Assembly (NCBI GenBank): GCA_019931185.1
Contig: JAINDK010000050.1
Coordinates: forward strand, 124,001-188,000
From: Bryobacter sp. CoA8 C33
Lineage (GTDB): Bacteria > Acidobacteriota > Terriglobia > Bryobacterales > Bryobacteraceae
Reading direction: 5' to 3'
Length of the DNA stretch: 64,000 nucleotides
The translations under genes and the position numbers were made by a program. Of this stretch, positions 23,605 through 47,846 are shown piece after piece. Numbering within the stretch: the first letter of the stretch is position 1; each line of letters opens with the position of its first letter. The notes under the pieces are model-generated. The model ran no database searches, had not been told where the DNA came from, and saw only the letters and a program-made list of their open reading frames with translations.

Positions 23605-24445
23605 CGATGATCTCCAGGCGGGCCAGCGTTTCGGCGGGCACCTTGGACTTGTCGGTGATGATGGCGTTCTTGAGCGCCGATTTGCACGAGCAGGCGCCGG
23701 GAGCGGGCATGGCCTCGACCGCGAGACGGACTACTTTGGCGGCATTCTCGGCGTTCTTGTTGAGGGTCGCAATGATCTGATCCACCGTGACGGCGTCGTG
23801 GCCGGGGTGCCAGCAATCGTAATCGGTGACCATCGCAACGGTGCAATAGCAGATCTCAGCTTCACGGGCGAGTTTGGCTTCCTGGAGGTTAGTCATGCCA
23901 ATGATGTCCATACCCCAGGAGCGATAAACATTCGATTCGGCCTTGGTGGAAAAGGCCGGGCCTTCCATGCAGAGATAGGCGCCACCGAGTTTGCTGGTGA
24001 CGCCAGCGCGCTGGCAGGCATCGTGAACGATCGCCATGAGGGGGTGGCAGGTGGGCTCGGCGAAGCTGACGTGGGCGACGAGGCCATCACCGAAAAAGGT
24101 GGAGACGCGCCCAAGGGTGCGATCAAAAAACTGATCGGGGAGGACGAATTGCTCGGGGGCGTGTTCTTCCTTCAGGCTGCCGACGGCGGAGACGCTGATG
24201 ATGCGCTCGACGCCGAGTTTCTTGAAGCCCCAGATATTGGCGCGGAAATTGAGTTCAGTGGGGGTGATGCGGTGGCCACGGCCATGGCGGGCAAGGAAGG
24301 CAACGCGCTTGCCGGAGATGGTGCCGATGACATAAGGGTCCGAGGGAGGGCCGAAGGGAGTATCGAGGGAGATTTCCTCGGTACGTTCGAAGCCGGGCAT
24401 GGAATAAAGTCCGCTGCCGCCGATGATGCCAGTATCGATAGTCAA
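23585..24445 (-). CDS. mtnP: S-methyl-5'-thioadenosine phosphorylase
   Basis: Splits MTA into adenine and 5-methylthioribose 1-phosphate (methionine salvage). The 286-residue protein has the phosphate-binding GIIGGSGLY, the RHGRGHRITP stretch, ISVSAVGSLK, CMEGPAFSTKAES and GMTNLQEAKLAREAEI, and substrate-specificity residues in VTDYDCWH; all match MTA phosphorylase rather than purine nucleoside phosphorylase II. I take TTG 24445 (MTIDTGIIGG) as the start because homologues begin there. A further TTG at 24466 would add seven residues and overlap the upstream gene. GAGGAG lies about 13 bases before 24445. Confidence 0.92.
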   Translation of the reverse strand: MTIDTGIIGGSGLYSMPGFERTEEISLDTPFGPPSDPYVIGTISGKRVAFLARHGRGHRITPTELNFRANIWGFKKLGVERIISVSAVGSLKEEHAPEQFVLPDQFFDRTLGRVSTFFGDGLVAHVSFAEPTCHPLMAIVHDACQRAGVTSKLGGAYLCMEGPAFSTKAESNVYRSWGMDIIGMTNLQEAKLAREAEICYCTVAMVTDYDCWHPGHDAVTVDQIIATLNKNAENAAKVVRLAVEAMPAPGACSCKSALKNAIITDKSKVPAETLARLEIIVGKYFR

Positions 24446-24449
24446 GAGT

Positions 24450-25565
24450 TTAAGAATGCTCCTCAATTAGTTCTAGCAGGACACCGCCCGTGGTGGCGGG
24501 GTGGACGAAGACGTACTTGTGACCGCCGGCGCCGACGCGCGGTTCGGACAAAACTCGGCCCCCAGCGGCGGTGATGCGCCCGATGGCAGGTTGGAGAGCG
24601 GGCACGCGCAGGGCAATGTGGTGCAGACCGGGGCCGCGTTCGCGGAGAAACTTCGCAACCGGGCCATCGGGACCGGTAGGTTCGAGAAGTTCCAGGCGGG
24701 AGGAACCGGCGGGCAGCATGGCGACATGAACACGCTCGGAGGCGACGGTTTCACGAGTGGGTTCAGCCATGCCGAGGGCGCCCTGATAGAAGCGGAGGGC
24801 TTCGTCGATATTGGCAACGGCGATACCGAGGTGGTCGATCGGGAATGAGGGGGGCAAAGCAGTGGGATGGCGGCGGGGAAGAGCGGCCAGGCAAGCCCAG
24901 ACGGCGGGGATGCCATCGCCGGTGGAGGCGACGGCTTTCAGAATGGGCCGTTCACCATGGATTTCCATTTCGATCTCCCGGTAAAGCTTGTCCGCGCCAG
25001 GATGGTCGGCTTTGTTGATGACGAACAGGTCGGCGATTTCCATGATGCCGGCCTTGATGGCCTGGATTTCGTCACCTTGGCCAGGAACGAGAAGGACAGC
25101 GACAATGTGAGCGAGGCGGGCAACTTCGATTTCATCCTGGCCCACGCCGACGGTCTCAATAAGGATGACATCGAAGCCGGCGGTATCGAGTACTTGAACG
25201 AGGCCGGAGGTGGAGGGGGCAAGGCCGCCGACGGCGCCGCGGGTCGCCATGGAACGGATAAAGACGCCAGGGTCTTCGTGATGGCGCTGCATGCGGATGC
25301 GGTCGCCGAGAAGCGCGCCACCGGTGCGCATGCTGGAGGGGTCGACGGCGATGACAGCGACGGTGAGACCCGAGGCGCGGATAGCGGCGATGAGTTCGGT
25401 GGTGAAGGTGCTCTTGCCGGCGCCCGGGGGACCGGTGATTCCGATCAGGAGGGCGTGACCGGGCGGGGCGAGACCAGATAAGGGAATACCTGCTTCGACC
25501 AGGGTGCAGGCGCGCGCGATAGCGCGGCGGTCACCAGAGCGGAGGCGGGCGGCGAGGTCGGTCAT
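24450..25565 (-). CDS. Fusion of MeaB/ArgK GTPase chaperone and methylmalonyl-CoA epimerase
   Basis: One 371-residue chain joins two proteins of propionyl-CoA metabolism. Residues 1-237 are MeaB, the G3E GTPase that loads and protects B12-dependent methylmalonyl-CoA mutase: P-loop GPPGAGKST (45-53), VDPSS (75-78), ETVGVGQDE (137-145) and NKAD (184-187). The C-terminal dimerisation arm of ordinary MeaB (about 330 residues) is missing. Residues 241-371 are the glyoxalase-fold epimerase that converts (S)- to (R)-methylmalonyl-CoA, with likely metal ligands His245 (DHLGIAV), His316 (GLHHIALR) and Glu366 (LLELIE). The frame is continuous through a short proline-rich linker. No mutase gene lies within the window. 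Confidence 0.93.
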   Translation of the reverse strand: MTDLAARLRSGDRRAIARACTLVEAGIPLSGLAPPGHALLIGITGPPGAGKSTFTTELIAAIRASGLTVAVIAVDPSSMRTGGALLGDRIRMQRHHEDPGVFIRSMATRGAVGGLAPSTSGLVQVLDTAGFDVILIETVGVGQDEIEVARLAHIVAVLLVPGQGDEIQAIKAGIMEIADLFVINKADHPGADKLYREIEMEIHGERPILKAVASTGDGIPAVWACLAALPRRHPTALPPSFPIDHLGIAVANIDEALRFYQGALGMAEPTRETVASERVHVAMLPAGSSRLELLEPTGPDGPVAKFLRERGPGLHHIALRVPALQPAIGRITAAGGRVLSEPRVGAGGHKYVFVHPATTGGVLLELIEEHS

Positions 25566-34681: not shown

Positions 34682-35524
34682 CTAGCCGCGGATGGCGGCG
34701 GAGGCGAGAATGGTAAGCTTCTCCCAGGTGGGGAGACGGTGACGGTGGTGGAGCACCTCGAAATTGCTGGCCTCAATGCGGCCGAAGAGGCGGTGGTAGA
34801 TTTCGATCAGGGCCCAGAGGCTCGAACGGGAATCTCGATCGACAAGGTCAATCAGTGGGCGGGAGAACTGGTAGTAATCGCGCGCGCGGCGGCCAAGTTC
34901 AGCAAGCAGGGTGTGGAGGCTAGCCGAGACGGCGCCTTTCTTGAGATCCTCGATCGAAACTTTGTACTGGCGCATCATGTCAGCGGGCAAATACGTACGG
35001 CCGAGATCGGCATCTTCGGCAACATCACGCAGGATATTGGTGAGTTGAAAAGCGATACCGCATTTTTCCGCCATCTCGAGGGCACGGGCGTGGGAGAAGC
35101 CGAAGATGTGCGTGATAGTGAGACCGACTACGCCAGCAACACGATAGCAATAACGATAGAGGTCCTCAAAGTTGGCGGGCTGATTAAAGGATAGGTCACT
35201 TGAAACGCCTTCGATCATGTCGTAGAGGTAGGCGCGAGGAATGTGGAAGCGGTGCACGGTATCGGCAAAGGCGGGCCAGATAGGGTGAACGGAGAGATCT
35301 CCATCGAGGGCACGATCCAGATCGGCGCGCCAAGCCTCGAGGGCGGCGCGCGAGGCTCCCTGCTCATCACTCAAATCGTCACACTCACGCATGAAGGCGT
35401 AGACGGCACACATGGCGAGACGCTTGGGCTTGGGCAGAACCAGGAAGGAGTAGTAAAAATTCTTGGCGCGCGCCCGGGCGATTTGCACGCAGCAATCATA
35501 AGATGCGGTAAGGTCGGGTGTCAT
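34682..35524 (-). CDS. hpnD: Presqualene diphosphate synthase (HpnD), phytoene/squalene synthase family
   Basis: Condenses two farnesyl diphosphates to presqualene diphosphate, the first squalene-branch step. The 280-residue protein has both aspartate-rich motifs of trans-isoprenyl head-to-head synthases: MRECDDLSDE near 57 and NILRDVAEDADLGRTYLP near 170. The phytoene-synthase-like character (FLVLPKPKRLAMCAVYAFMRECDD) distinguishes HpnD from HpnC. The ATG at 35524 overlaps the stop of the upstream small membrane protein gene (ATGA); a longer frame to 35599 overlaps that gene and is rejected. It is the last gene of the hopanoid operon. Confidence 0.9.
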   Translation of the reverse strand: MTPDLTASYDCCVQIARARAKNFYYSFLVLPKPKRLAMCAVYAFMRECDDLSDEQGASRAALEAWRADLDRALDGDLSVHPIWPAFADTVHRFHIPRAYLYDMIEGVSSDLSFNQPANFEDLYRYCYRVAGVVGLTITHIFGFSHARALEMAEKCGIAFQLTNILRDVAEDADLGRTYLPADMMRQYKVSIEDLKKGAVSASLHTLLAELGRRARDYYQFSRPLIDLVDRDSRSSLWALIEIYHRLFGRIEASNFEVLHHRHRLPTWEKLTILASAAIRG

Positions 35525-35778
35525 TCTCGGGCCGCCAGCACGGATTGATAAATGTAGTTGGCTTGCAAGAGACCGGCGAGGGCGAACAGCAGGTTGCAAG
35601 CGCCCCAGGCGATGGGCCGGATGTTTCTATTGGGAAACAGCGCCAGGACGCCCAGGAGGGGCAGCAGAACCGAGAAAGCGGTAAAGCCGAAAACGGCGCC
35701 TGCCCACACCTGAAACAGAATCACCCAGGCGAGAAAGAGACGGGAAGGCCAGGAAGCAAGCAGCGAGCGGAAAGCCAT
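35521..35778 (-). CDS. Small three-helix membrane protein in the hopanoid operon
   Basis: An 85-residue protein of unknown function with three likely transmembrane helices: LFLAWVILFQVWAGAVFGF, AFSVLLPLLGVLALF and AWGACNLLFALAGLLQANYIY. It has no catalytic motif that I recognise. It is 13 bp behind the AraC-MGMT gene and overlaps hpnD by 4 bp (ATGA), which argues for real translation. Because its neighbours make squalene from farnesyl diphosphate at the membrane, it could help anchor or deliver substrate; this is inference. A longer open frame upstream is antisense-like to the previous gene and is not used. Confidence 0.65.
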   Translation of the reverse strand: MAFRSLLASWPSRLFLAWVILFQVWAGAVFGFTAFSVLLPLLGVLALFPNRNIRPIAWGACNLLFALAGLLQANYIYQSVLAARE

Positions 35779-35791
35779 CGCAATTACTAGA

Positions 35792-36628
35792 TTAACGCGG
35801 AGAGAGACTGCACTCAGCGTCAAGAAGCTGCTGTTTGCGATCAAGACCCCAGCGGTAGCCGCCGAGCGCGCCGTTACCGCGTATAACGCGGTGGCAAGCA
35901 ATGGCGAGCGCAACACGATTCTGCCCGCAGGCATTGGCGACGGCGCGGGTGGCCTTGGGCTGGCCGATCGCAGCCGCGACTTCCGAATAGCTGCGGGTTT
36001 CGCCGCGCGGAATTTGGCGGAGGAATGCCCAGACACGGGCCTGGAAGGCGGTGCCACGGATATCGATCGGCAGTGAGGGGTTGATAGCCCGGCCGTTGAG
36101 GTAGCCCCGAATTGCCTCGAGCCAAGCCTCGAGTAGAGGCGAAAAAGGCGGAGCGACAGCATGGATGCTGGCGCGGGGAAACTCAGCGTGAAGGCGCGGG
36201 GGGAGATCTTCGGCACGATCTGCGATGTCGAGGCGGCAAAGGCCGCGATCGGTAGCGGCCATGAGGATATAGCCGAGAGAGGTAGCGAAAGTAAGGTAGC
36301 TGATGGTCACGCCGTCGCCGGAGGCACGGTATTGGGCGGGCGTCATTCCGAGGTCAGAGTCGATCCGCTCGTAAAGACGGCTGGAGGAGGCAAAGCCGGA
36401 ATCGTAGAGGGCCTGGGTAACAGTGGGGTCATCGTGGCGGAGATTGCCCTTGAGGCGCTCGATGCGGCAGCGGAGTTGGAACTGCTTGGGAGTGAGGCCC
36501 AGAGTAGCTTTGAACTGGCGCTGGAGATGGAAGGGACTGTAGCCGGTGAGACGGCTCATTTCGGTGAGCGGGATGGATTCCTCCGCGTGATCATGGAGGT
36601 AGCGGGAGAGGAAAGCAATGGGATCCAT
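35792..36628 (-). CDS. AraC-type helix-turn-helix fused to O6-alkylguanine methyltransferase (Ada-like, no zinc-Cys N-domain)
   Basis: A 278-residue protein. Residues 1-100 are an AraC DNA-binding domain (IPLTEMSRLTGYSPFHLQRQFKATLG, SSSRLYERIDSDLGMTP). Residues 108-278 are the methyltransferase part, with GTAFQARVWAFLRQIPRGETRSYSEVA, the arginine-finger region RAVANACGQN, and the acceptor Cys245 in AIACHRVIRG. The family almost always has PCHR; here proline is replaced by alanine (Ala244). The phosphotriester-sensing N-terminal domain of E. coli Ada is absent. It is embedded in the hopanoid operon between an unknown ORF and the small membrane protein. Confidence 0.88.
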   Translation of the reverse strand: MDPIAFLSRYLHDHAEESIPLTEMSRLTGYSPFHLQRQFKATLGLTPKQFQLRCRIERLKGNLRHDDPTVTQALYDSGFASSSRLYERIDSDLGMTPAQYRASGDGVTISYLTFATSLGYILMAATDRGLCRLDIADRAEDLPPRLHAEFPRASIHAVAPPFSPLLEAWLEAIRGYLNGRAINPSLPIDIRGTAFQARVWAFLRQIPRGETRSYSEVAAAIGQPKATRAVANACGQNRVALAIACHRVIRGNGALGGYRWGLDRKQQLLDAECSLSPR

Positions 36629-36980: not shown

Positions 36981-37850
36981 CTATCCGAATATCCGGTTCT
37001 TGCTCCAGGAAAATAGCGTGGAGAGAAGAAGCCGGAGCCGTTCCTGTTTCGTGATTTTGGGGCGGGCGTCGAGGACGCGATACTGTTCCGCCTCAACTTT
37101 ATCGAGAATGGCCATGCCGCCGCGGGAGAAAAGTTCGATGTCGAGAGCGAGGCGGGGGTCGAGTTGGGCTGCCAGCGGGAGACCTTTGTAAAAGAATTGC
37201 CGGGCGAAACCGACGGCTTCCCGCATCGCTTGCTCAAAGGCGGGAGTATGACGGAGGGAGAGAATATCGGCCTCCCGGACGTTGTGGCGGGCCAACAGAT
37301 CCTGAGGCAGGTAGATGCGGCCCTTCTCAACATCGACACGAACGTCTTGCCAGAAGTTGGCGAGTTGCAGACCGGTGCAGGTGTGGTCACTGAGAAGGAA
37401 GAGAGCATTGTCGCGATAACCGCAGAGTTCAAGCACGAGGCGGCCCACGGGGTTGGCGGAGTTGACGCAATAATCGAGGACTTGCGGCCAATCGCGGTAG
37501 CGGGTAGTCGTCTGGTCGTACTCAAAGGCTTCGATCAGGCGGACGAAGTGCTCAAGGGAAAGGTTGCGGCGGGCGATGGTGCCGCGAAGCGCGACAAAAA
37601 CGGGGTGCTGGTCGCCATTGTGGGAGAGAAGCAGGGATCGCCACCAAGCGAGGAGGCGAAGGGATTCAACAGAATCACCAATCTCGTCACCGAGATCATC
37701 CGCCCAGCGGCAGAAGGCATAGACGTTATAAAAATCCTGATGGAGATGCTTGGGCAGAAGGAAGCTGACTACGTGGAAATTTTCGTAGTGATGGGTGGAG
37801 AGCCAGCGGGTGTAATGTTCAGATTCCGCATGGGACCAGCGATGGCTCAT
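36981..37850 (-). CDS. hpnC: Hydroxysqualene synthase (HpnC)
   Basis: Converts presqualene diphosphate to hydroxysqualene, the second HpnCDE step. The 289-residue protein has the HpnC features HHYENFHVVSFLLPKHLHQ, the first aspartate motif CRWADDLGDE and the second motif QLANFWQDVRVDVEKGRIYLP. The ATG at 37850 (MSHRWSHAES) has GAGG upstream and leaves a 31-bp gap to the previous gene; a start at 37913 would overlap that gene and is less likely. HpnE, the hydroxysqualene dehydroxylase that completes the pathway, is not in the window. Confidence 0.88.
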   Translation of the reverse strand: MSHRWSHAESEHYTRWLSTHHYENFHVVSFLLPKHLHQDFYNVYAFCRWADDLGDEIGDSVESLRLLAWWRSLLLSHNGDQHPVFVALRGTIARRNLSLEHFVRLIEAFEYDQTTTRYRDWPQVLDYCVNSANPVGRLVLELCGYRDNALFLLSDHTCTGLQLANFWQDVRVDVEKGRIYLPQDLLARHNVREADILSLRHTPAFEQAMREAVGFARQFFYKGLPLAAQLDPRLALDIELFSRGGMAILDKVEAEQYRVLDARPKITKQERLRLLLSTLFSWSKNRIFG

Positions 37851-37881
37851 CGCCGCCTCATTGTTCAGGAAGTGGGCGGGT

Positions 37882-38922
37882 TCAAGGAATGATGGCAGTT
37901 TTGACGGCGCCATTCTTGTGCAACTGATAGGAGAGGACTTCGTTCAAGTTGCTCAAGGGCTCCTCGCCAGTAACGAAATCAGATGCCGTAATGTAGCCGG
38001 CAACCACAGCCTCAAGAGCCTTGCGAATGTGAGCAGGGGTATGGTGGAAACTCGCCATGCAAGTGATCTCGGAGTAATGCATGAGTTGAGTGTCCAGTTG
38101 GACTTGGGTATCGGTGGGGCAACCCCCGAAGAAATTCAGCACACCACCGCGGCGGAGCATCAGGATGGCCTGTTGCCAAGTGTCGACCGTACCGACAGCC
38201 TCCATGACGACATCAGCGCCATAGCCCATCGTTTCGCGCTTTACCGCGGAAACGATGTCTCTTTCTTCGAGGATGCTGAGAGAGACGGCAGCTCCGAGTT
38301 TGAGGGCGCGGTCCAGTTGCGGACGGCGACGTCCGATGGCAATGACCCGGCAGCCGCGCAGACCAAGCAGCCGCACGAACATTAGACCGATTGGCCCAAC
38401 TCCAATGACAACGACCGTATCGCCAGGCTTGACCTGGGTTTCGTCGATACCGCGAATGACACATGCCAGTGGTTCCACCAGGGCGGCGTCCTGGTATTCG
38501 ACATGATGGGGAATCTCGTACAAGTTCCGCTGCACAAGCCGGGCTGGAATTCGGATGAATTCAGCATAAGCGCCGTTGTTGAATAAAAGGTTCTCGCAGA
38601 GGTTTTCGTTATTCTTCCGGCAGTAGAAACATTCCCCACAAGGGGCGGAGTTAGCGGCTACCACGCGCTGCCCAACCCTAAAGCCGCCGACAGCGGCGCC
38701 GGTGGCGACGATATCTCCGGCGAGTTCATGACCAAACAGTGCTGGCGGCACAATCATGCGGGCGTGGTAGCCACGGTGAAAAACCTTGACATCGGTTCCA
38801 CAGGTGAGGGCGGCGCGCACACGCACAAGAATATCTCCATCTCCCAGTTGCGGAACCGCAACTTTTTCGATTTCGACGTGTTGTTTACCGTATAGGACGG
38901 CTGCCAGCATTTCCTGCTTCAC
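37882..38922 (-). CDS. Zinc-dependent alcohol dehydrogenase, first of two in the hopanoid operon
   Basis: A 346-residue medium-chain dehydrogenase of the threonine/sorbitol dehydrogenase type. Catalytic zinc ligands lie in LTCGTDVK (Cys41) and FGHELAG; the structural zinc site is CGECFYCRKNNENLC; the NAD(P) site is VIGVGPIGLMFVRLLG. The substrate cannot be read from the sequence. GTG 38922 is used as start; ATG 38910 (MLAAVLYG) is an alternative. It sits between hpnC and a second dehydrogenase of the same family, so a polyol or sugar step of hopanoid side-chain synthesis is a reasonable guess. Confidence 0.85.
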   Translation of the reverse strand: MKQEMLAAVLYGKQHVEIEKVAVPQLGDGDILVRVRAALTCGTDVKVFHRGYHARMIVPPALFGHELAGDIVATGAAVGGFRVGQRVVAANSAPCGECFYCRKNNENLCENLLFNNGAYAEFIRIPARLVQRNLYEIPHHVEYQDAALVEPLACVIRGIDETQVKPGDTVVVIGVGPIGLMFVRLLGLRGCRVIAIGRRRPQLDRALKLGAAVSLSILEERDIVSAVKRETMGYGADVVMEAVGTVDTWQQAILMLRRGGVLNFFGGCPTDTQVQLDTQLMHYSEITCMASFHHTPAHIRKALEAVVAGYITASDFVTGEEPLSNLNEVLSYQLHKNGAVKTAIIP

Positions 38923-38946
38923 TCTATTGTGGTCTCAAATTTTGGT

Positions 38947-39999
38947 TTACGATTGCTGCGGCAAAATCACGACTTTCAGGGAGGTTTCGTCCGGATGGGT
39001 AGCTCGATCGAATCCCGCCATGATCTCTGAAAGAGGGTAGCGGTGAGTGACGAGTTCAACAACCGGGATATCCCCTGAAAATACTAGCCTAGCTGATTCT
39101 GACTGCAAATCAATATCAGCGGAATAAACGCCAGTCAGCATTCGTTCGTTCTTACAGATGTCCGCGCCAGAGAGGTCGATGCGCTCTTTGTCGGAAGTTT
39201 GGGCAAAAAGTACAATTCGGCCGCCGGGCCGGGTAGCGCGGACAGCCTGTTCAACGATTCCGGGGGCACTGGCAGCGACAAAAGCAATATCGGCGCCGCG
39301 TCCGGAGGTGTGTGAGCGGGCCAGAGCAGTGAGGTCATCGGCACGGGGATCAAGCGAGGCGGCGGCGCCGAATCGAAGCGACTTGGCGCGACGGGCCGGC
39401 ATGGTATCCGTGGTGAGAGTGGTGATGCCGCGGTGCTTGAGCAGCATGGTGAAGATCAGACCAATGGGGCCTTGGCCGAGCACGAGGGCGAGATCGCCGG
39501 AAGCCACACCGGACTGCTCGACGGCTTTGAGGCAGGTATTGACTGGCTCCACGAAACTAGCCTGATCAAAAGAGACTCCGGGAGGAATTTTTTCAACACC
39601 CCGCTCGACGATCCAGGGCATGACCAGGGCGTACTGGGCGTAGCCGCCCCCGGCGGGGGCAAAGCCAGCGGTGATGCCGACGCGCTTGTAGGTTTCGCAC
39701 TGTGCATACAGGCGGCGCTGGCAGTAAAAGCATTGACCGCAAGGGATGTGATGAAAGGCAACAACCGAGTCGCCCGGAGCAAACCGGCTAACACCCTCGC
39801 CCACCGCGGCAACTAGGCCAGCTGTTTCGTGGCCAAAGATGCGGGGAGGGGGGAGTAGGCCATATTCGATCTTCTTGAGATCGGTGTGGCAGATTCCGCA
39901 GGACTGGACAGCAATCAGAATTTCACCAGGCCCGGGAAGAGGAACAGGTATTTCTTCGATTACGACACTTTGCTTGCCGCGATAAACAGCGGCCCGCAT
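38947..39999 (-). CDS. Zinc-dependent alcohol dehydrogenase, second of two in the hopanoid operon
   Basis: A 350-residue paralogue of the downstream gene. Catalytic zinc ligands are in SCGICHTDLK and FGHETAG, the structural zinc site is CGQCFYCQRRLYAQC, and the cofactor loop is VLGQGPIGLIFTMLL. The start is set at ATG 39999 (MRAAVYRGKQ) because homologues start there and it leaves 4 bp to hpnG. ATG 40029 would overlap hpnG by 26 bp. The two copies differ clearly along their length, so this is an old duplication or two separate recruitments, not a recent tandem copy. Confidence 0.85.
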   Translation of the reverse strand: MRAAVYRGKQSVVIEEIPVPLPGPGEILIAVQSCGICHTDLKKIEYGLLPPPRIFGHETAGLVAAVGEGVSRFAPGDSVVAFHHIPCGQCFYCQRRLYAQCETYKRVGITAGFAPAGGGYAQYALVMPWIVERGVEKIPPGVSFDQASFVEPVNTCLKAVEQSGVASGDLALVLGQGPIGLIFTMLLKHRGITTLTTDTMPARRAKSLRFGAAASLDPRADDLTALARSHTSGRGADIAFVAASAPGIVEQAVRATRPGGRIVLFAQTSDKERIDLSGADICKNERMLTGVYSADIDLQSESARLVFSGDIPVVELVTHRYPLSEIMAGFDRATHPDETSLKVVILPQQS

Positions 40000-40003
40000 T
40001 GTG

Positions 40004-40612
40004 TCAGGCAATGTCGGCGAGTGCGGCATTGAGCGCGAGTTGCAATCCTTTCACGGCAATCCTCGTTTGCCGTTGCAAACGGATCAGCGCCGTAATCTTC
40101 ATGATGCCAGCAATTGCGATGCGGAGGTGGGAGAAGTTGCCGTTGGCGTCGCGGTGGAGATTGAAGTCGACGGGAAGGTCTTCGTCCGCCAGATCACTCA
40201 CTGCTTTCAGGCAAGAAAAAGGAATGCCATGTCTTTCGCAGAGCAGGGCCACGGCGGCGGCCTCCATATCGACGATTTGAGCGCCCGTGGCAAACAGCTG
40301 TTCCTTTTCCAGGACGGTGACGGCTACGCGATCCTGACTATGAAGCGTCGCGGCAGGAGCGGCGAGTGGCTGAGGCGTGAACACGCCTAAGGGAGACTGG
40401 ATACGAGACACGGTCAGGACCTGACCGAGAGACAAAGCCGGGTCGAGAGCGCCGCAAACACCGATGGAGATGACACGCGCGGGACGGTGAGCGGCGAGAT
40501 GTTGCGAGAGGGCGGCCGAAGCGGCGCTGAAGCCGGGACCGGTGATCAGACGAGTAGCGGAGGCGGGGAGAGCTTCGGCCTCGACGGGCATGGCGCAGAG
40601 ATAAAGATTCAT
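40004..40612 (-). CDS. hpnG: Hopanoid-associated nucleoside phosphorylase (HpnG)
   Basis: Removes adenine from adenosylhopane to give (phospho)ribosylhopane. The 202-residue protein belongs to the MTA/SAH-nucleosidase-like phosphorylases: MNLYLCAMPVEAEAL at the start, VISIGVCGALDPALSLGQV and the ATGAQIVDMEAAAVALLCE stretch with the catalytic glutamates, then LKAVSDLADEDL. The ATG at 40612 overlaps the hpnA stop by 4 bp, and an open frame to 40711 antisense-extends into hpnA and is rejected. Confidence 0.88.
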   Translation of the reverse strand: MNLYLCAMPVEAEALPASATRLITGPGFSAASAALSQHLAAHRPARVISIGVCGALDPALSLGQVLTVSRIQSPLGVFTPQPLAAPAATLHSQDRVAVTVLEKEQLFATGAQIVDMEAAAVALLCERHGIPFSCLKAVSDLADEDLPVDFNLHRDANGNFSHLRIAIAGIMKITALIRLQRQTRIAVKGLQLALNAALADIA

Positions 40613-41568
40613 GACCGTGAGCGGAACCAATCGACGGCGCGGGCAAGGGCGGCGTCGACGGGTTGGGGTTGGTAGCCGAGTTCGCGCACGGCCTTGTGAT
40701 GGTCGACCCACATCCTGATCTGGGCATAGCGTACGCCATCGAGGGGAATACCAGGATGCGTTCGAGTCAGGTTGCCCCAGAGGGTAGACACGGCTGCGGC
40801 AGTATAGGCAAGGGCGTAAGGAATGCGCAGGCGCGGAGAGGAAAGCCCGGAGACAGCAGCAAGCCTGTCGAGCATCTGTTTCAAGCTAAGGTTCTCCGCG
40901 CCCAGGATGTAGCGCTGACCGGGGCGGCCGTGCGTGGCAGCAAGCAAGTGACCAAGAGCGACATCGGAGACATCGACGTAATTGAGGCCGGTGTCAATGT
41001 AGGCGGGAATGCGGCCGCCCAGGAAATCCCCGATGACCTTACCGGTGGGAGTCGGCTTGAAATCGTGATCGCCGACCGGTGTCGTGGGATTAACGATCAC
41101 TACGGGAAGGCCTTCCCGCGCGGCCGCGAGGGCGACCTGTTCGGCCAGGAACTTCGTGCGCTTGTAATGGCCCTTCATCGCGGCAAGGGAGACGGGAGAA
41201 TCTTCGTCGGCGATGATGCCACGGCGCATGCCGATGGTGCCGACAGTGGAACAATATACAATGCGCGAAGCATGGCGGGCGGCGGTAATCAGATTCCGGG
41301 TACCTTCGACGTTGGAGGCATGCATGGCGGCGGGATCGGCGGTCCAGAGACGGTAGTCAGCAGCTACATGGAAGACGTGATCGCATCCGGATGCGGCGTG
41401 GGCGAGGGAAGCCGGGTCGCGCAAATCACCGGCTACGGTCTCGACATCGAGTTCTGGAACGGGGCCGGAGCGGGAAAGCGCACGCACCTTTACTCCACGC
41501 TGGTGAAGGAGTTTCGCTACATGCCAGCCCACGAAACCGGTGGCGCCGGTGACGAGGGCGGTCTTCAT
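40609..41568 (-). CDS. hpnA: Hopanoid-associated sugar epimerase/reductase (HpnA)
   Basis: A 319-residue extended short-chain dehydrogenase. It has the NAD(P) loop GATGFVGWHVA, DLRDPASLAHA, VFHVAADYRLW (typical for HpnA), the catalytic YKRTK at 133-137 with the upstream serine in YCSTVGTIG, and NPTTPVGDHDFKPTPTG, a recognisable HpnA segment. The exact reaction in hopanoid synthesis is not firmly known. It starts 3 bp after the hpnH stop and overlaps hpnG by 4 bp. Confidence 0.9.
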   Translation of the reverse strand: MKTALVTGATGFVGWHVAKLLHQRGVKVRALSRSGPVPELDVETVAGDLRDPASLAHAASGCDHVFHVAADYRLWTADPAAMHASNVEGTRNLITAARHASRIVYCSTVGTIGMRRGIIADEDSPVSLAAMKGHYKRTKFLAEQVALAAAREGLPVVIVNPTTPVGDHDFKPTPTGKVIGDFLGGRIPAYIDTGLNYVDVSDVALGHLLAATHGRPGQRYILGAENLSLKQMLDRLAAVSGLSSPRLRIPYALAYTAAAVSTLWGNLTRTHPGIPLDGVRYAQIRMWVDHHKAVRELGYQPQPVDAALARAVDWFRSRS

Positions 41569-41571
41569 GAG

Positions 41572-42684
41572 CTATTTGATCATCCAACTTAGGTAGGTAA
41601 AGGCATCCTGCCACTTGGAGTTAATGCCCATGGCGGCGGAAGGCTCGTAGCCGCAATGGACCATGCAATGATCGCAGCGGGGGTCGGCGCCATGGCCGTA
41701 GTTTTCCCAAGGTGTCTTGGTCATGAGCTCTTCAAACGTGTTGTAGTGGGCGTCGGTGATGAGGTAGCAGGGGCCTTTCCAACCCTTGATGTTGTAAGTA
41801 GGATTACCCCATGCCGTGCAGGGAAGGTCCCGATCCCCTTCGAGAAACTCAAGGTAAACGGGAGAGTTATTGAACTTGAAGCGGGCGAATTTCTTGTTGA
41901 AACCGTGGAATTTTTCGAGTATGTCCTCGCGCGTCATGAAAATTTCGCGGTCGTTGACGGCGGAGTAGCCATAAGCGGGTGAGATGCTGTGGCCATCGAC
42001 CTTCATCTCCTTGAGCATGTCGAACATTTCAACGAGTTCGTCCATGTCGGTTTCCTTGTAGACGGTGGTGTTGGTGCAGACCTTGAAACCGGCGGCCTTG
42101 GCGGCGCGGATCCCCTCGATGGCGAGCTTGAAAACGCCTTCGCGCTCGACAGCAATATCGTGGTTTTTTTCCATGCCGTCGAGATGGACATTGAAAAAGA
42201 AGTTATCGTTGGGCTTGAATTGAGATAGCTTTTTCGCGATGAACATGCCGTTGGTACACAGGATGACCAAACGGCCACGGCCAATCAGGGCCTCAACCAG
42301 TTGCGGTAGAGGGCCATAGAGCATGGGTTCGCCCCCGCAAATAGCCACTACCGGCGCACCGCACTCATCACTCGCCTTGAGGCACTGTTCGAGAGAAAGC
42401 TGCTGAGTAATTGTGGATTCGTACTCGCGGATGCGTCCACAACCAGTACAGGTCAGGTTGCAGGCATGGAGCGGTTCGAGTTGGAGAACCAGCGGAAACC
42501 GCCTGTTGATCATGGGATGCGGCTTCTTTTCCGTCGCGTTGCCGAAATGCGACTGGACAATGCGAAAAGGATTCGAACTGTCGTATTCCGTATTGACGGT
42601 CTTCTGCCACTCGGGCTTGGGATTCATCTTATTCCGGGCGATATAAGTCGCCAGGGAAGCCATGGTTGAAACAGAAAAGCTCAT
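41572..42684 (-). CDS. hpnH: Adenosyl-hopene transferase, radical SAM (HpnH)
   Basis: Attaches the 5'-deoxyadenosyl group of SAM to hopene, starting C35 hopanoid synthesis. The 370-residue enzyme has the radical-SAM cluster motif C-x3-C-x2-C at Cys75, Cys79 and Cys82 (ACNLTCTGCGRI), the SAM-binding AICGGEPMLYG, and a C-terminal cysteine group (CDHCMVHCGYEPSA). It overlaps the cyclase gene by 4 bp. Its presence means the host makes extended, not just C30, hopanoids. Confidence 0.95.
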   Translation of the reverse strand: MSFSVSTMASLATYIARNKMNPKPEWQKTVNTEYDSSNPFRIVQSHFGNATEKKPHPMINRRFPLVLQLEPLHACNLTCTGCGRIREYESTITQQLSLEQCLKASDECGAPVVAICGGEPMLYGPLPQLVEALIGRGRLVILCTNGMFIAKKLSQFKPNDNFFFNVHLDGMEKNHDIAVEREGVFKLAIEGIRAAKAAGFKVCTNTTVYKETDMDELVEMFDMLKEMKVDGHSISPAYGYSAVNDREIFMTREDILEKFHGFNKKFARFKFNNSPVYLEFLEGDRDLPCTAWGNPTYNIKGWKGPCYLITDAHYNTFEELMTKTPWENYGHGADPRCDHCMVHCGYEPSAAMGINSKWQDAFTYLSWMIK

Positions 42685-44624
42685 GACGTTTCCTTACCTC
42701 GATTGAGATACATCGCGAGAGCCATCATGGGAAAAGCATTGCGATACATGTGATAGGTCAGATAAAAGACTTTGGGGAAGCCGGTGCCGGTGGAGAGTTC
42801 TTCATCCCAGCAGCCATCCGGCCGCTGGGTGGAGATCAGGTATTCCACTCCCTTACGGACACTTTCGCTGGTTATATCGCCACCAGCGAGAAGGCCCATG
42901 ACAGCCCAGGCGGTTTGGCTGGCGGTGGAGGGCCCACTGACGTAGGTGTTCCGGTCATAGCTGCGGCATGATTCACCCCAGCCGCCATCAACGTTTTGGA
43001 TGGAACGAAGCCACTCGCCGGCCCGTAGCACGTAGGCCTCGCGATCGCTTACGCCGGCCCGGCGCAAGCCCTTGATAGCGAGGAAGGTTCCATAAATGTA
43101 ATTCACACCCCAACGGCCATACCAACTGCCATCCTGCTCCTGGGAACGGATGAGGTATTCGACACCGCCGCGAATCGCCGGATGATTGCCGCCAATACCG
43201 TATCGGGACAGGGCATCGAGAACGCGTCCGGTGATGTCGGGACAGGAGGGGTCGAGCATGGCATTGTGGTCGGCAAAGGGAACATCGGAGAGAAAATTCC
43301 AGTTGTTATCCACGTCGAAGGCAGCCCAACCGCCATCCTTGCCCTGCATGCCGATGAGCCAGTTGACAGCACGGCGGGCGGCAGCCTCCTGGGCGGTGCG
43401 ATTGGAGGCTTGGGCGCCATCGAGGCCAATGAGCACCATGGCGGTGTCATCGATATCGGGGTAGAACTCGTTGGCAAACTCAAAATACCAGCCCGAGGGC
43501 TCGAGTTTGGGGCGTTTGACGGCCCAGTCGCCTTTGCGGCGGCACTCCTTGGTCAGCAGCCAATCGGCACAGCGGCTGAGAGCCTGGTGGACGTCCAGGT
43601 TGGCCGGGGTCTGTTCTACTTCGGCAAGGGCATAGGCAGCAATGGCTGTATCCCAGACCACGGAAAAGCAGGGCTGAAAGTAGAATCCCTTGGCTTCGTC
43701 ATCGACCATGAGAGCTTCAAAGTGCTGGAGGGCGGCGACACGGCGGGCATCGTCGGCAGCATAGCCGAGTACATCCATTGCCATGACGGAATACATCATG
43801 GGCGGATAAATGGCCGCAAGGCCATCGGAATAGTCGAGACGCTCCAGCATCCAGCGCTCACATCGCTCGATGGCGCGCCGGCGCAAGACATTGCGGAGGG
43901 GTGAGCGTTCAAAAATCTTGAGCGCAGAATCGGCCGTATAGAAAAAGTTCTTGAGGCTCCAGAATTGTTCAGCGGGACGGAAGTCAAAGCTAACGCCAGG
44001 CTTGACGATTTCTTCCAGATTAAATCCGGTGGGAACAGAACAACAATGCCCGCTCGATGCGATGATCGACAAGGGAATGACAATGGCGCGCGACCAGCTT
44101 GACATCTCGTATATGAAGCGGCCAAGCAGGATCATCTCCGGCGGAATGCTGGGAACGCAACCCTTGGGATAGAGACCGAAAAGGCTCAGGTTGATCTTCG
44201 TGTAACTGTTGGCCGCCTGGATCCCACCGAGGGAAAGGATGCAGTCCCGGAGGCGGACCATGCGTTCGTCCTCTACGGGCAGACCGGCAAGCTTGAGAGA
44301 GAAATAAGCCTTGACGCAGGCTGAAATCTCAGCTGGACCCTGAGGGTAAATATGGAATCCTCCATCGGGGAGTTGGCGAGCAAGGATGGATGCCGCCGCC
44401 CGGTCGATCCGGGCGCGGTTCGGAGGATTCCAGATACCGTTTTCTACGGGGTGCAGCCAGAGCTGAAAGAGGATGAAATCCGATTCAAGAGTGGTATCCG
44501 CAGTCAGATCCTCCCACCAATAACCCTCCCGGTGCTGGCGTTTGAGCAGAGCAGCCGAGGCGCGCCGCACGGCCTGAATTGCGTTGGCGCTGACAGCATC
44601 CGCAAGCTGCAGCCGAGGGCTCAT
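42681..44624 (-). CDS. shc: Squalene-hopene cyclase
   Basis: Cyclises squalene to hopene/hopanol at the membrane (also named hpnF). The 647-residue protein has the catalytic DxDD motif DIDDTA with Asp390-Asp393, several QW repeats (GKDGGWAAFDVDNNW, QEQDGSWYGRWGVNYIYG, NVDGGWGESC and RPDGCWDEE), and an N-terminal YWWEDLTADTTLESDF stretch typical of bacterial SHC. It overlaps ispH on one side and hpnH on the other by 4 bp each, giving a tightly coupled operon head. Confidence 0.97.
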   Translation of the reverse strand: MSPRLQLADAVSANAIQAVRRASAALLKRQHREGYWWEDLTADTTLESDFILFQLWLHPVENGIWNPPNRARIDRAAASILARQLPDGGFHIYPQGPAEISACVKAYFSLKLAGLPVEDERMVRLRDCILSLGGIQAANSYTKINLSLFGLYPKGCVPSIPPEMILLGRFIYEMSSWSRAIVIPLSIIASSGHCCSVPTGFNLEEIVKPGVSFDFRPAEQFWSLKNFFYTADSALKIFERSPLRNVLRRRAIERCERWMLERLDYSDGLAAIYPPMMYSVMAMDVLGYAADDARRVAALQHFEALMVDDEAKGFYFQPCFSVVWDTAIAAYALAEVEQTPANLDVHQALSRCADWLLTKECRRKGDWAVKRPKLEPSGWYFEFANEFYPDIDDTAMVLIGLDGAQASNRTAQEAAARRAVNWLIGMQGKDGGWAAFDVDNNWNFLSDVPFADHNAMLDPSCPDITGRVLDALSRYGIGGNHPAIRGGVEYLIRSQEQDGSWYGRWGVNYIYGTFLAIKGLRRAGVSDREAYVLRAGEWLRSIQNVDGGWGESCRSYDRNTYVSGPSTASQTAWAVMGLLAGGDITSESVRKGVEYLISTQRPDGCWDEELSTGTGFPKVFYLTYHMYRNAFPMMALAMYLNRGKETS

Positions 44625-45640
44625 CCTTTCGCGCCTGCCGGCATGGCATTCGTGATCGAATGTAACCGAATCGCCCCATCGCTCAATTCGTTAGGAAGCG
44701 TAAAACGAACGTCTTCTTCCTTAATTTCCATTTCTTCCATCGCCTGAAATCCATGGTCTTCGCGGAGAAATGCGATCAGTTCCTCCACAAGGTTGTCCGG
44801 TGCGCTTGCTCCCGCGGTAATGGATACCGTATTGACTCCGCTGAGCCATTCCGGTTTCACCTCGGATTTGTCGTCAATTAGGTAGGCGGGGACGCCCGCC
44901 TTCTGGCAGACTTCCACGAGGCGGCGGGAATTGGAAGAATTCTGGCTGCCGACGACCAGAAGAAGCTCGCAAAGAGGGGCTACGGCCTTGACGGCGATCT
45001 GGCGATTTTCCGTGGCATAACAGATATCCTGAGCCGGCGGACCCTGAATGTTGGGGTACTTTGCCTTGAGGGCGGCAATGATATCGCGGGTTTCGTCCAG
45101 CGAAAGAGTAGTCTGCGTGAGATATACGATCTTATCTGGGTCAGGAAAGTTCGTGAGCGACACGTCATCGGGGGTCTCAATCAGAATTGTGGCCTCCGGA
45201 GCTTCACCCATGGTCCCGACGATCTCTTCGTGGTTCGAGTGGCCGACGAGGGCGATGGAGTAGCCTTTTTTCGCGTAGCGCACCGCTTCCAAGTGCACCT
45301 TGGTGACGAGAGGACAAGTGGCGTCAATTACATTCAGTTGGCGCTCCACAGCCTCTTTGCGGACTGCCGGGGAGACTCCGTGGGCGGAGAAAATCACTCG
45401 GGCGCCAGAGGGAACTTCATCCAGTTCGTCAACGAAAATTGCCCCGGCATTGCGTAATTCTTCGACTACGTGCCGATTGTGCACAATTTCCTTGCGGACG
45501 TAAATCGGGGCTCCGTAAAGATCGAGGGCGATCTTGACAACATCTATTGCGCGCACCACACCGGCGCAGAAGCCCCGTGGAGAAAGAAGTATGATTTTCT
45601 TCTCTTTTGCGGGACTCGTGGAGACACTCGAGTTCGACAT
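44621..45640 (-). CDS. ispH: 4-hydroxy-3-methylbut-2-enyl diphosphate reductase
   Basis: Last enzyme of the MEP pathway, making IPP and DMAPP. The 339-residue protein has the three iron-sulfur cysteines in SPRGFCAGV (Cys25), DATCPLVTKVH, and QDICYATENRQ, plus the substrate-site SQNSSNSRRL. The ATG at 45640 (MSNSSVSTSP) has AAGG seven bases before it; a longer frame to 45745 runs into the previous gene and is rejected. It heads the hopanoid operon, so isoprene supply is coordinated with hopanoid production. Confidence 0.96.
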   Translation of the reverse strand: MSNSSVSTSPAKEKKIILLSPRGFCAGVVRAIDVVKIALDLYGAPIYVRKEIVHNRHVVEELRNAGAIFVDELDEVPSGARVIFSAHGVSPAVRKEAVERQLNVIDATCPLVTKVHLEAVRYAKKGYSIALVGHSNHEEIVGTMGEAPEATILIETPDDVSLTNFPDPDKIVYLTQTTLSLDETRDIIAALKAKYPNIQGPPAQDICYATENRQIAVKAVAPLCELLLVVGSQNSSNSRRLVEVCQKAGVPAYLIDDKSEVKPEWLSGVNTVSITAGASAPDNLVEELIAFLREDHGFQAMEEMEIKEEDVRFTLPNELSDGAIRLHSITNAMPAGAKG

Positions 45641-45650
45641 GAGAACCTTT

Positions 45651-45656
45651 AGTATA
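45651..45656 (-). promoter_or_regulatory. Possible -10 element of the hopanoid operon
   Basis: TATACT on the minus strand sits 10 bases before the ispH ATG. No good -35 hexamer was found at the right distance, and the start site would be only a few bases before the ATG. Weak call. Confidence 0.3.
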
Positions 45657-45677
45657 ACCGACGCTAATGCGCCTGCT

Positions 45678-47846
45678 TTATAAATGAGCCGATACAAAGG
45701 CCTGGAAATCGGGGGGGAGAAGGATTTCCTGTTCGAGGACGGCAACAGGAAAATCGGAAGGTAACTTTACGGCATCCTTGGCGGTCGTGATCCGGTACGG
45801 TGCAAGGGAAGCGAGGTGTTTGAGATCAGACGAGGAATAGTAGTGATGATCGGGAAAGGTTAGCAGAGGAGTGGCGGAGTGGCCGAGGCGATCGAGGCTC
45901 CGGCGGAAGGAGGCGGGATTACCGAGCCCACAGAAGGCGAGGGTGGAGCCTGCTGGGAGGGGAGGAAGTGACTCGCGAGATTCCGGGCAAAACAGAGGCC
46001 GGTCTGGAAGCAATGACTTGAGGCCAAGCGGGTCGATGTTGCGGCCGAGCCGGGTCAGCACGAATGCATCGGCGCGCTCCAGGGCGGATAGGGGTTCGCG
46101 AAGCCAACCGGCGGGAGGGCAGGCCCACCCCGGAAAGGGGCGCAGAGTATCGATGACGGCAACATCGCAATCGCGATGGAGGCGGCGGTGTTGGAAGCCG
46201 TCATCGAGAAGAAACAGATCGGCGGGATATTCATCGAGAAGGGCAAGACCGGCGCGATGCCGGTCAGGGCTGATTGCTACGCAAAAGCCGGCGCGAAGAA
46301 AAAGTTGGGCTTCATCACCGGTGGCGGTGACGGGGTGGGAGCCACCCGGCAAGCAGATGAGATCGGTGCGGGAGTGGCGGCCGAAGCCGCGCGTGAGAAT
46401 CGCAACGCGCTTGCCAGAAGCGGAATAAGCTTTGGCGAGGGCCAGCGTGAACGGGGTCTTGCCGGAGCCACCCATCGAGAGATTCCCGATGGAAACCACG
46501 GGTACAGGGAGCCGGCGAGCAGAAACGGAGCGCTGGGAGACCCAGACCCAGGGGGCACTGAGAGGGCGCAGCAGGGAATGAAAAGGCGGCAGGTGGCGGG
46601 GAACGCCACGGCCGAGCTCGGGCTGGAGTTGCTGACTCAGCCGATTGGAGACGCCCCGATAAGATAGCGCCAGTTCCCTTCCCCGGGCCGCCATTTCAGA
46701 TTCACCGAGGGCTTGCCTGACTGAGGCGGCGAGCAGTTGTGGCTGAGCAACAACCTTCAGCGCGCGGCGGGCAATAAAGAGCTCAAAAATGGCGGCAAAG
46801 TTACCCATGTTGGGCCCGGTGAGGATGGGCTTGCCGAAACAGGCAGGCTCAAGAATGTTGTGACCCTGGGTTTGATTGAATGAGCCGCCAACGAAGACGA
46901 CGCTCGAGAGGGCGAACAGTGGGGCCAGCTCGCCGATCGAGTCCAGCAACAGAAGGTCACCGGATTCGGCGCCCGTGAGTTGAGATCGGCGGCGGAAGCG
47001 GAGGCCGCGCTGGGCGATTTTCCCGGCAACGATCTCAAAGCGCTCGGGTTTGCGTGGCGCAATCAGCAGCCGGACCCGGCCCTCGAGCTGGGCATAGGCG
47101 TCGAGAACGCAATCATCCTCGTCCGTATCGCCGGTATCGACGGGACCAGTTGTGGAGGCAGCGATCCAGAGAGGGCGAGCTTCCTGGCCGGAAAAGTAAG
47201 AGAGAACTTCGGGAGGAATGGGCTTCGAGCTGGGGTCAAAATCAAACTTAAGGTTGCCAGCGTAGCAGATAGGGCCGGAGTAGCCGAGTGCGCGAAATCG
47301 TTCTCCGTCGGTCTCACTTTGCGCGGCAAGGAAATCCACCAGAGGCAAGAAAGGCTGGAATAGCCAGGCAAGGCGGCAATAGCGAGGCCAAGCGCGATCG
47401 CTGATGCGGGCATTGACCTGAGCCCAGCGGGCGCCGGAACGCTTCGCCTCGAGCATACGGATGGGCCAGAGTTCCGTCTCGAAGTTGATGATCAGAGCCG
47501 GATTCAGACGGCGCAGTACGCGACGAACCGCAAAGGTAAAATCAACCGGCGCGAAGAAAACACCATCAACGAACGGCTCGAGGCGCGATACGGCAAGTTG
47601 ACGGCCAGCCAGTGTGGTGGTGGAGACAAAAACCGGAGTATCGGGAAGCAACTCGCGGAGCTTGCGAACGAGGGAAATGGCGCTCAGAACTTCCCCCACG
47701 CTGACAGCATGCAACCAGATGCCGCCCGGCTTCGTCGAGGGAAGGGAGGGAGGGAGCCAACCAAGGCGCTCTTTCATGCCTCGAAGGTACTCTTTTTGCC
47801 GGAGGCAGCGTAGGGCCGCGTAGAGTAAGAGTAGAGGCAAAAGCAT
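45678..47846 (-). CDS. Fusion of Kdo transferase (WaaA) and lipid A 4'-kinase (LpxK)
   Basis: One 722-residue chain unites two successive lipid A/inner-core enzymes at the inner membrane. Residues 1 to about 415 are WaaA: an N-terminal membrane anchor (MLLPLLLLYAALRC), GIWLHAVSVGEV with the catalytic Glu52, NFETELWP (121-128), and the donor-site FVGGSFNQTQGHNILEP. Residues about 420-722 are LpxK: RLPVPVVSIGNLSMGGSGKTPF with the P-loop near 455-464, RGFGRH, DEAQLFL, LLDDGFQHRRLHRD (the DDGFQH hallmark) and TTAKDAVKL. The frame is continuous. I place the start at ATG 47846, which gives a normal WaaA N-terminus; the frame is open to 47975 but then overlaps the divergent gene. Each enzyme alone is about 420 and 330 residues. 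Confidence 0.92.
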   Translation of the reverse strand: MLLPLLLLYAALRCLRQKEYLRGMKERLGWLPPSLPSTKPGGIWLHAVSVGEVLSAISLVRKLRELLPDTPVFVSTTTLAGRQLAVSRLEPFVDGVFFAPVDFTFAVRRVLRRLNPALIINFETELWPIRMLEAKRSGARWAQVNARISDRAWPRYCRLAWLFQPFLPLVDFLAAQSETDGERFRALGYSGPICYAGNLKFDFDPSSKPIPPEVLSYFSGQEARPLWIAASTTGPVDTGDTDEDDCVLDAYAQLEGRVRLLIAPRKPERFEIVAGKIAQRGLRFRRRSQLTGAESGDLLLLDSIGELAPLFALSSVVFVGGSFNQTQGHNILEPACFGKPILTGPNMGNFAAIFELFIARRALKVVAQPQLLAASVRQALGESEMAARGRELALSYRGVSNRLSQQLQPELGRGVPRHLPPFHSLLRPLSAPWVWVSQRSVSARRLPVPVVSIGNLSMGGSGKTPFTLALAKAYSASGKRVAILTRGFGRHSRTDLICLPGGSHPVTATGDEAQLFLRAGFCVAISPDRHRAGLALLDEYPADLFLLDDGFQHRRLHRDCDVAVIDTLRPFPGWACPPAGWLREPLSALERADAFVLTRLGRNIDPLGLKSLLPDRPLFCPESRESLPPLPAGSTLAFCGLGNPASFRRSLDRLGHSATPLLTFPDHHYYSSSDLKHLASLAPYRITTAKDAVKLPSDFPVAVLEQEILLPPDFQAFVSAHL

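Follow-up and report, generated by a model that had tools for sequence, protein, structure and literature searches.

Two zinc dehydrogenases beside hpnG in Acidobacteriota are likely parts of the C35 hopanoid pathway and candidates for ribosylhopane reduction

In one large lineage of Acidobacteriota, two zinc MDR dehydrogenases, here called ADH1 and ADH2, are likely to form part of the C35 hopanoid pathway, acting at the HpnG step or later. They were identified in a 64,000-nucleotide stretch of DNA from Bryobacter sp. CoA8 C33 (the window), where they directly follow hpnG. The observations behind this conclusion are a tight run of hopanoid genes, a linkage that is conserved between genomes, intact zinc motifs and opposite cofactor signatures in the two enzymes. 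We put the probability that the pair acts somewhere on the hopanoid side chain in this lineage at roughly 0.6. The best single mechanism is that ADH2 is the ribosylhopane reductase of this lineage, and it is offered tentatively, as a candidate only.

Bacteriohopanetetrol (BHT) is a common hopanoid, and its geological products are widely used as biomarkers. HpnG converts adenosylhopane to ribosylhopane. To our knowledge, there is no known sequence family for a ribosylhopane reductase. The activity that converts ribosylhopane to BHT is NADPH-dependent in a cell-free system from Methylobacterium organophilum. The original prediction started from the premise that the enzyme for this conversion is not identified, and the accessible part of a 2025 paper, according to which no enzyme has been established for it, upholds that premise (PMC12583986). 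Our literature search found no paper naming a ribosylhopane reductase, with most subscription papers and key papers from 2014 and 2015 beyond its reach, and a search for ribonylhopane returned nothing.

The genes of the pair belong to a tight run on the minus strand, ispH-shc-hpnH-hpnA-hpnG-ADH1-ADH2-hpnC, with intergenic gaps of -32 to +24 bases when the hpnG start is taken as ATG 40612. The run begins with ispH (44621..45745; start codon uncertain), which scored over the cut-off of the NCBIfam IspH models. It is followed by the squalene-hopene cyclase gene shc (42681..44624; TIGR01507, 653 bits), the adenosylhopane synthase gene hpnH (41572..42684; TIGR03470, 409.9 bits) and hpnA, which encodes a hopanoid-associated SDR "sugar epimerase" (40609..41568; TIGR03466, 429.8 bits), all over their cut-offs. 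The nucleoside phosphorylase gene in the hpnG position (40004..40612) has TIGR03468 as its best match, with 88.3 bits against a cut-off of 187.1; ATG 40612 is its likely start and gives a 4-base overlap with the hpnA stop. ADH1 (38947..40029, 360 aa) and ADH2 (37882..38922, 346 aa, GTG start) come next, and ADH2 overlaps hpnC (36981..37913; TIGR03464, 313.2 bits, over cut-off) by 32 bases. Beyond hpnC lie an ada-like gene (35792-36628) and hpnD (34682..35599, minus strand; TIGR03465, 255.6 bits, just below the cut-off of 278.6). The TIGR03468 cut-off was passed in 0 of 70 genomes, and a looser threshold also matched 7 of the 14 control genomes. Since the search for HpnG was this loose, HpnG was called by best match and position. 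With hpnG called in this way, the claim that two zinc dehydrogenases directly follow it was borne out; the region first described ended at 39999, which leaves out 30 bases at the start of ADH1.

Two further genes of the window were noted. A phosphorylase-superfamily gene (PF01048) lies at 23585-24466 on the minus strand, about 13 kb from the ADH pair, and by its sequence may be a methylthioadenosine phosphorylase. At 24450-25565, also on the minus strand, a single ORF combines a MeaB GTPase domain with one of the glyoxalase type (Pfam); this reads as a putative fusion of MeaB with methylmalonyl-CoA epimerase, the second name being the predicted one.

ADH1 and ADH2 are both full-length and free of internal stops, and both contain ADH_N (PF08240) and ADH_zinc_N (PF00107) above the Pfam cut-offs. 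They are 32% identical to each other. Their best NCBIfam matches scored 142-161 bits against cut-offs of 380-458. With L-threonine 3-dehydrogenase (TIGR00692, cut-off 458.35), ADH2 scored 155.6 and ADH1 145.7 bits, and with scyllo-inosose 3-dehydrogenase IolM (NF041097, cut-off 450) they scored 160.5 and 142.4 bits, respectively. Since these equivalog cut-offs are far above the scores, ADH1 and ADH2 fall outside any named family. The catalytic zinc ligands and the four structural cysteines are kept in both, as seen in the motif columns listed, the alignments and the window proteins. The predicted catalytic ligands are C41, H65/E66 and E150 in ADH2 and C47, H67/E68 and E161 in ADH1, and the structural cysteines are 95/98/101/109 and 97/100/103/111; the roles of these residues are presumably those of MDR enzymes in general.

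The two enzymes differ at the cofactor site. We take an acidic end of the second strand of the nucleotide fold to mark the NAD type and a basic loop to mark the NADP type. By these motifs, ADH2 is predicted to have an NADP-type site (GRRR at 197-200) and ADH1 an NAD-type site (D208). The signatures hold across the hopanoid-linked orthologs listed. ADH2 has a basic loop (GRRR, VKR, VKH or GNR) with L095, which is acidic, as the sole exception, and in ADH1 the second strand ends in an acidic residue (Asp; Glu in L099). More distant ADH2-like sequences vary at this position, with Asp in f44, f46, f24 and the planctomycete. Because ADH2 is predicted to be of the NADP type and ADH1 of the NAD type, ADH2 is the better reductase candidate, and ADH1, also considered for the main role, was put behind it. 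In a PDB sequence search with ADH2, 4ej6 was the best match and 1e3j the twelfth. The structure models had pLDDT values of 71 and 62, and the model with the higher value, of moderate confidence, matches 4ej6/4ejm and 1e3j in fold. As model quality was moderate to low, only the fold was taken from the models, and a reading of the pocket from them was rejected.

Co-occurrence was surveyed in 237 Acidobacteriota genomes (requested completeness 85 or more) and 14 control genomes. A close ADH1 ortholog was defined by 342 bits or more (next best 201.5) and a close ADH2 ortholog by 358 bits or more (next 281). HpnH was detected in 63 of the 237 genomes and in 0 of 14 controls. Close ADH1 orthologs were present in 40 genomes, and close ADH2 orthologs in the same 40 and in G121. 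HpnH was found in 37 of the 40 (Fisher p about 9e-23, kinship ignored), and in this direction the proposed co-occurrence stands. It does not stand in the other: 26 of the 63 HpnH genomes are without a close ADH1, which counts against the pair as the source of the reductase. With HpnH as the marker, ADH1 is neither present wherever the C35 pathway is nor absent elsewhere. This patchy match is compatible with a ribosylhopane reductase confined to one lineage, and because of the counter-examples any such reductase is probably lineage-specific rather than universal.

Exceptions of both kinds were examined. ADH1 without HpnH was seen in G103 and G230 (93% and 88% complete), where hpnA adjoins ADH1; SHC is present in G103 and none was seen in G230. 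G209, which is 100% complete, has both dehydrogenases and HpnC over its cut-off, with no match to SHC, HpnH or HpnG. Among the HpnH genomes lacking a close ADH1, G007 is of the same class as the window. A 10.7 kb contig carries its hpnH, SHC is present, and no HpnG, HpnC or HpnA was found at the thresholds used; either an assembly gap or a real loss could account for the missing genes. Five others belong to family f31 and carry a distant ADH2-like protein, 42-43% identical, away from hpnH. Three of these five look like Chloracidobacterium, and C. thermophilum is reported to make BHPs in the accessible part of a 2017 paper (PMC5462960). Distant ADH2-like proteins of this kind (255-281 bits) were found in these five genomes and also in G072, G195, G218 and G121, none of which has a match to HpnH. 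HpnH itself varies: the window protein scored about 409 bits on TIGR03470, whereas scores in family f2, which belongs to the same class, were 517-558, and there seems to be more than one type of HpnH in the phylum.

The link between the dehydrogenases and hopanoid genes extends well beyond the locus in the window. Among the 40 genomes with a close ADH1, all Acidobacteriota, the gene is beside hpnG or hpnA in 38, which exceeds what chance would give, the only two with neither neighbor being from f38. In 27 it comes immediately after hpnG, with less than 1 kb between them, and in the 11 genomes of f28 it comes after hpnA. ADH1 and ADH2 are adjacent in 23 of the 40 and apart in 17. When they are apart, ADH1 is beside hpnG in 17/17 and ADH2 is beside an over-cut-off HpnC in 16/17, the remaining genome, G183, having a partial HpnC match beside ADH2. 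Because both genes keep hopanoid neighbors after splitting, each stayed with the hopanoid genes on its own. No other observation speaks as strongly for a hopanoid role of ADH1 and ADH2. In G119 and G127, ADH1 lies beside hpnG even though the hpnH on that contig is at a distance of about 51 and 82 kb.

We considered whether ADH2 belongs to a step tied to HpnC. This was weakened by 10 of the 11 f28 genomes and by G127, which have ADH2 without an over-cut-off HpnC; in those read, ADH2 is beside hpnD. In the f28 genomes, for example those of loci L096 and L098, ADH1 comes after hpnA with no hpnG in between. Weak matches to the HpnG family, which may represent other phosphorylases, follow hpnD in G230, lie about 5 kb from hpnD in G184 and sit on separate contigs in most of the remaining genomes; G214 gave none. 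At locus L172, the cluster has no hpnH between shc and hpnA, and an hpnH of a different type, 45% identical to that of the window, lies upstream on the other strand. From this arrangement, HpnH seems to be replaceable while ADH1 stays with hpnG. Six loci from lineages without the pair were inspected by eye, and no alternative reductase was evident near hpnH or hpnG.

Relatives of the pair outside hopanoid clusters came from the class of G061. In its 149 genomes, a close ADH1 was present in 14, HpnH in 3 and both in 2. HpnH therefore occurs in 2/14 genomes with ADH1 compared to 1/135 without it, which is above expectation (Fisher p 0.023), and 12 of the 14 ADH1 genomes lack HpnH. Eight of these 12 are 92-100% complete and four are 68-85% complete; the SHC search among them covered G209 alone. 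At the f38/f75 loci without HpnH, a proline dehydrogenase relative immediately precedes the pair in 6 of 12 (Pfam check of one), and in 5 of 8 a pyrimidine-nucleoside phosphorylase relative lies at a distance of about 3-6 kb (Pfam check of one). At the G337 locus, hpnG takes the place of the proline dehydrogenase beside the pair. The ADH2 ortholog of G121 neighbors genes matching the class II aldolase, ARD and HAD families (Pfam), which we read from their sequences as probable mtnB, mtnD and mtnC of a methionine-salvage-like set.

Trees were built after near-duplicate sequences and distant paralogs had been dropped, and one ADH2 sequence, truncated where its contig ends, was too short to use. 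Hopanoid-linked ADH2 sequences form one clade (support 97; 99/93 in a second tree), and the f38/f75 sequences form a separate one (99; 100/99 in the second tree). In the ADH1 tree, f38/f75 is one clade (99), and the hopanoid-linked sequences group weakly (62). This pattern can be explained by recruitment of the enzymes into hopanoid synthesis, or by their reuse when the hopanoid side chain was lost. Conserved differences between the hopanoid-linked and f38/f75 forms were found at 3 of 108 positions in ADH2 and 5 of 109 in ADH1; with so few, a pocket specialized for hopanoids is not evident. At ADH2 position 115, the 36 hopanoid-linked sequences have N (24), I (9), L (2) or H (1), and 10/10 f38/f75 sequences have W.

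Outside the phylum, the picture is different. We collected 80 hpnH loci from titled records, of which 23 were assigned to Acidobacteriota and 57 were not (two of these without a phylum). The pair was in the hpnH flank at 5 of the 23 Acidobacteriota loci and at 0 of the 57 others, for some of which the fetched flank was short. A whole-genome search of 47 of the 57 genomes (289 bits or more) found ADH2-like proteins in 15, namely 12 of 21 cyanobacteria (44-47% identical), one planctomycete (41%), another bacterium (46%) and a MAG titled Arcobacter (67%). In that MAG (G404, locus L245), the pair sits in a hopanoid cluster on a different contig from its hpnH locus. The cluster genes are 59-72% identical to those of the window, with hpnG at 42% and the shc match broken into two weak pieces, and by these sequences it is probably a mislabelled acidobacterial MAG.

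Many hpnH-bearing cyanobacteria have a single conserved ADH2-like gene. At the seven such loci read (L236-L242), no hopanoid gene was found nearby, apart from two weak HpnA-like pieces (41-42 bits). hpnA is beside hpnH in 11 of the 12 cyanobacteria with the ADH2-like gene compared to 2 of the 9 without it, kinship ignored. Vasconcelosia (L126) has shc, hpnH and hpnA at its locus and no ADH2-like match in its genome, so the ADH2-like gene is not required wherever these three are present. A broader reading is that ADH2 is the first identified ribosylhopane reductase, with ADH1 as its redox partner, and that the ADH2-like proteins of the 12 cyanobacteria do the same job. We consider this improbable. 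If it were true, ribosylhopane reduction would have a recognizable enzyme family beyond Acidobacteriota.

In the reading preferred here, HpnG would release ribosylhopane, and its ribose ring would open to an aldehyde. ADH2, with its catalytic zinc and NADPH, would then reduce this aldehyde to bacteriohopanetetrol. ADH1, of the NAD type, would be a partner that acts on a different alcohol or carbonyl of this side chain, or would work in the reverse direction. We infer the substrate, direction and product of both enzymes. Two dehydrogenases exceed the need of a single reduction, which counts against ADH2 as the reductase. Another explanation is possible. ADH1 could use NAD+ to oxidize a side-chain hydroxyl to a ketone, which ADH2 would reduce with NADPH to the opposite configuration or a modified polyol, while ribosylhopane is reduced elsewhere. 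The pairing of an NAD-type with an NADP-type enzyme fits this and is also seen in f38, where two ADH1 sequences are acidic and 7 of 8 ADH2 sequences basic (L208 is acidic); the matching clades given by the two genes fit as well. However, the genes lie apart in 17 of the 40 genomes, even though both remain beside hopanoid genes, and our literature search turned up no study of BHT stereochemistry for Acidobacteria. We regard this explanation as somewhat unlikely.

It is also possible, although unlikely, that HpnA is the ribosylhopane reductase and that the dehydrogenases work elsewhere in hopanoid or terpenoid metabolism, ADH2 perhaps near squalene, before hpnC. HpnA tracks HpnH more closely than ADH1 does: it is over the cut-off in 62 of the 237 genomes (60 of the 63 HpnH genomes together with G103 and G230) and in 0 of 14 controls, and hpnA is beside hpnH in many cyanobacterial loci. 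The accessible part of the 2017 paper proposes HpnA for the conversion of ribosylhopane to BHT (PMC5462960). It also ties to hpnC, hpnD and hpnE a gene called ug2, of about 350 aa, which precedes hpnC in Acidobacteria and is often annotated as a Zn-binding alcohol dehydrogenase. Yet the same text points to some evidence that Burkholderia cenocepacia does not strictly need hpnA for BHT and reports that the gene is absent from Rhodopseudomonas. In G054, assembled as a single 6.0 Mb contig, hpnH, hpnG and shc are present with no HpnA over the cut-off, and the f28 genomes and G127 argue against an ADH2 role tied to HpnC. In a comparably doubtful alternative, the pair would be a dehydrogenase module for pentoses or polyols in general that serves several pathways. 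It would have become co-transcribed with the hopanoid genes of one lineage, with hopanoids as one of its substrates at most. The f38/f75 orthologs without HpnH, with their proline dehydrogenase and nucleoside phosphorylase neighbors, the methionine-salvage-like surroundings in G121 and the few differences between the clades all suit such a module. The separate clade of hopanoid-linked ADH2 does not, nor does the retention of hopanoid neighbors by both genes after splitting.

Taken together, the proposal that one or both enzymes reduce ribosylhopane gains from the conserved linkage and the predicted NADP-type site of ADH2. The interpretation is only partly supported because there are orthologs without HpnH, HpnH genomes without ADH1, no pair in the hpnH flanks of other phyla and a better distributed rival in HpnA, and because the activity is a predicted one. 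The final step to BHT has no assigned gene in the accessible part of the 2025 paper (PMC12583986), and two linked candidates make this gap testable in culturable Terriglobia.

Several known proteins resemble the pair. The putative Zn dehydrogenase 4ej6/4ejm and the NADP(H)-dependent ketose reductase 1e3j are like ADH2 in fold and sequence; they are only 25-29% identical, and no substrate inference follows. L-threonine 3-dehydrogenase and scyllo-inosose 3-dehydrogenase share the MDR family and zinc motifs with ADH1 and ADH2, but the scores of 142-161 bits against cut-offs of 450-458 set the pair apart from them. HpnA, like ADH1, is encoded by an oxidoreductase-family gene beside hpnG and was proposed earlier for this step. 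It differs from both dehydrogenases in being an SDR rather than a zinc MDR enzyme and in following HpnH more closely. A further parallel is found in the acidobacterial hopanoid clusters of the 2017 paper, the accessible part of which proposes neither ug1 nor ug2 as the ribosylhopane reductase (PMC5462960). There, ug1 is a gene of unknown function after hpnA-hpnG. The positions of ug1 and ug2 match those of ADH1 and ADH2, and by its position ug1 would be ADH1.
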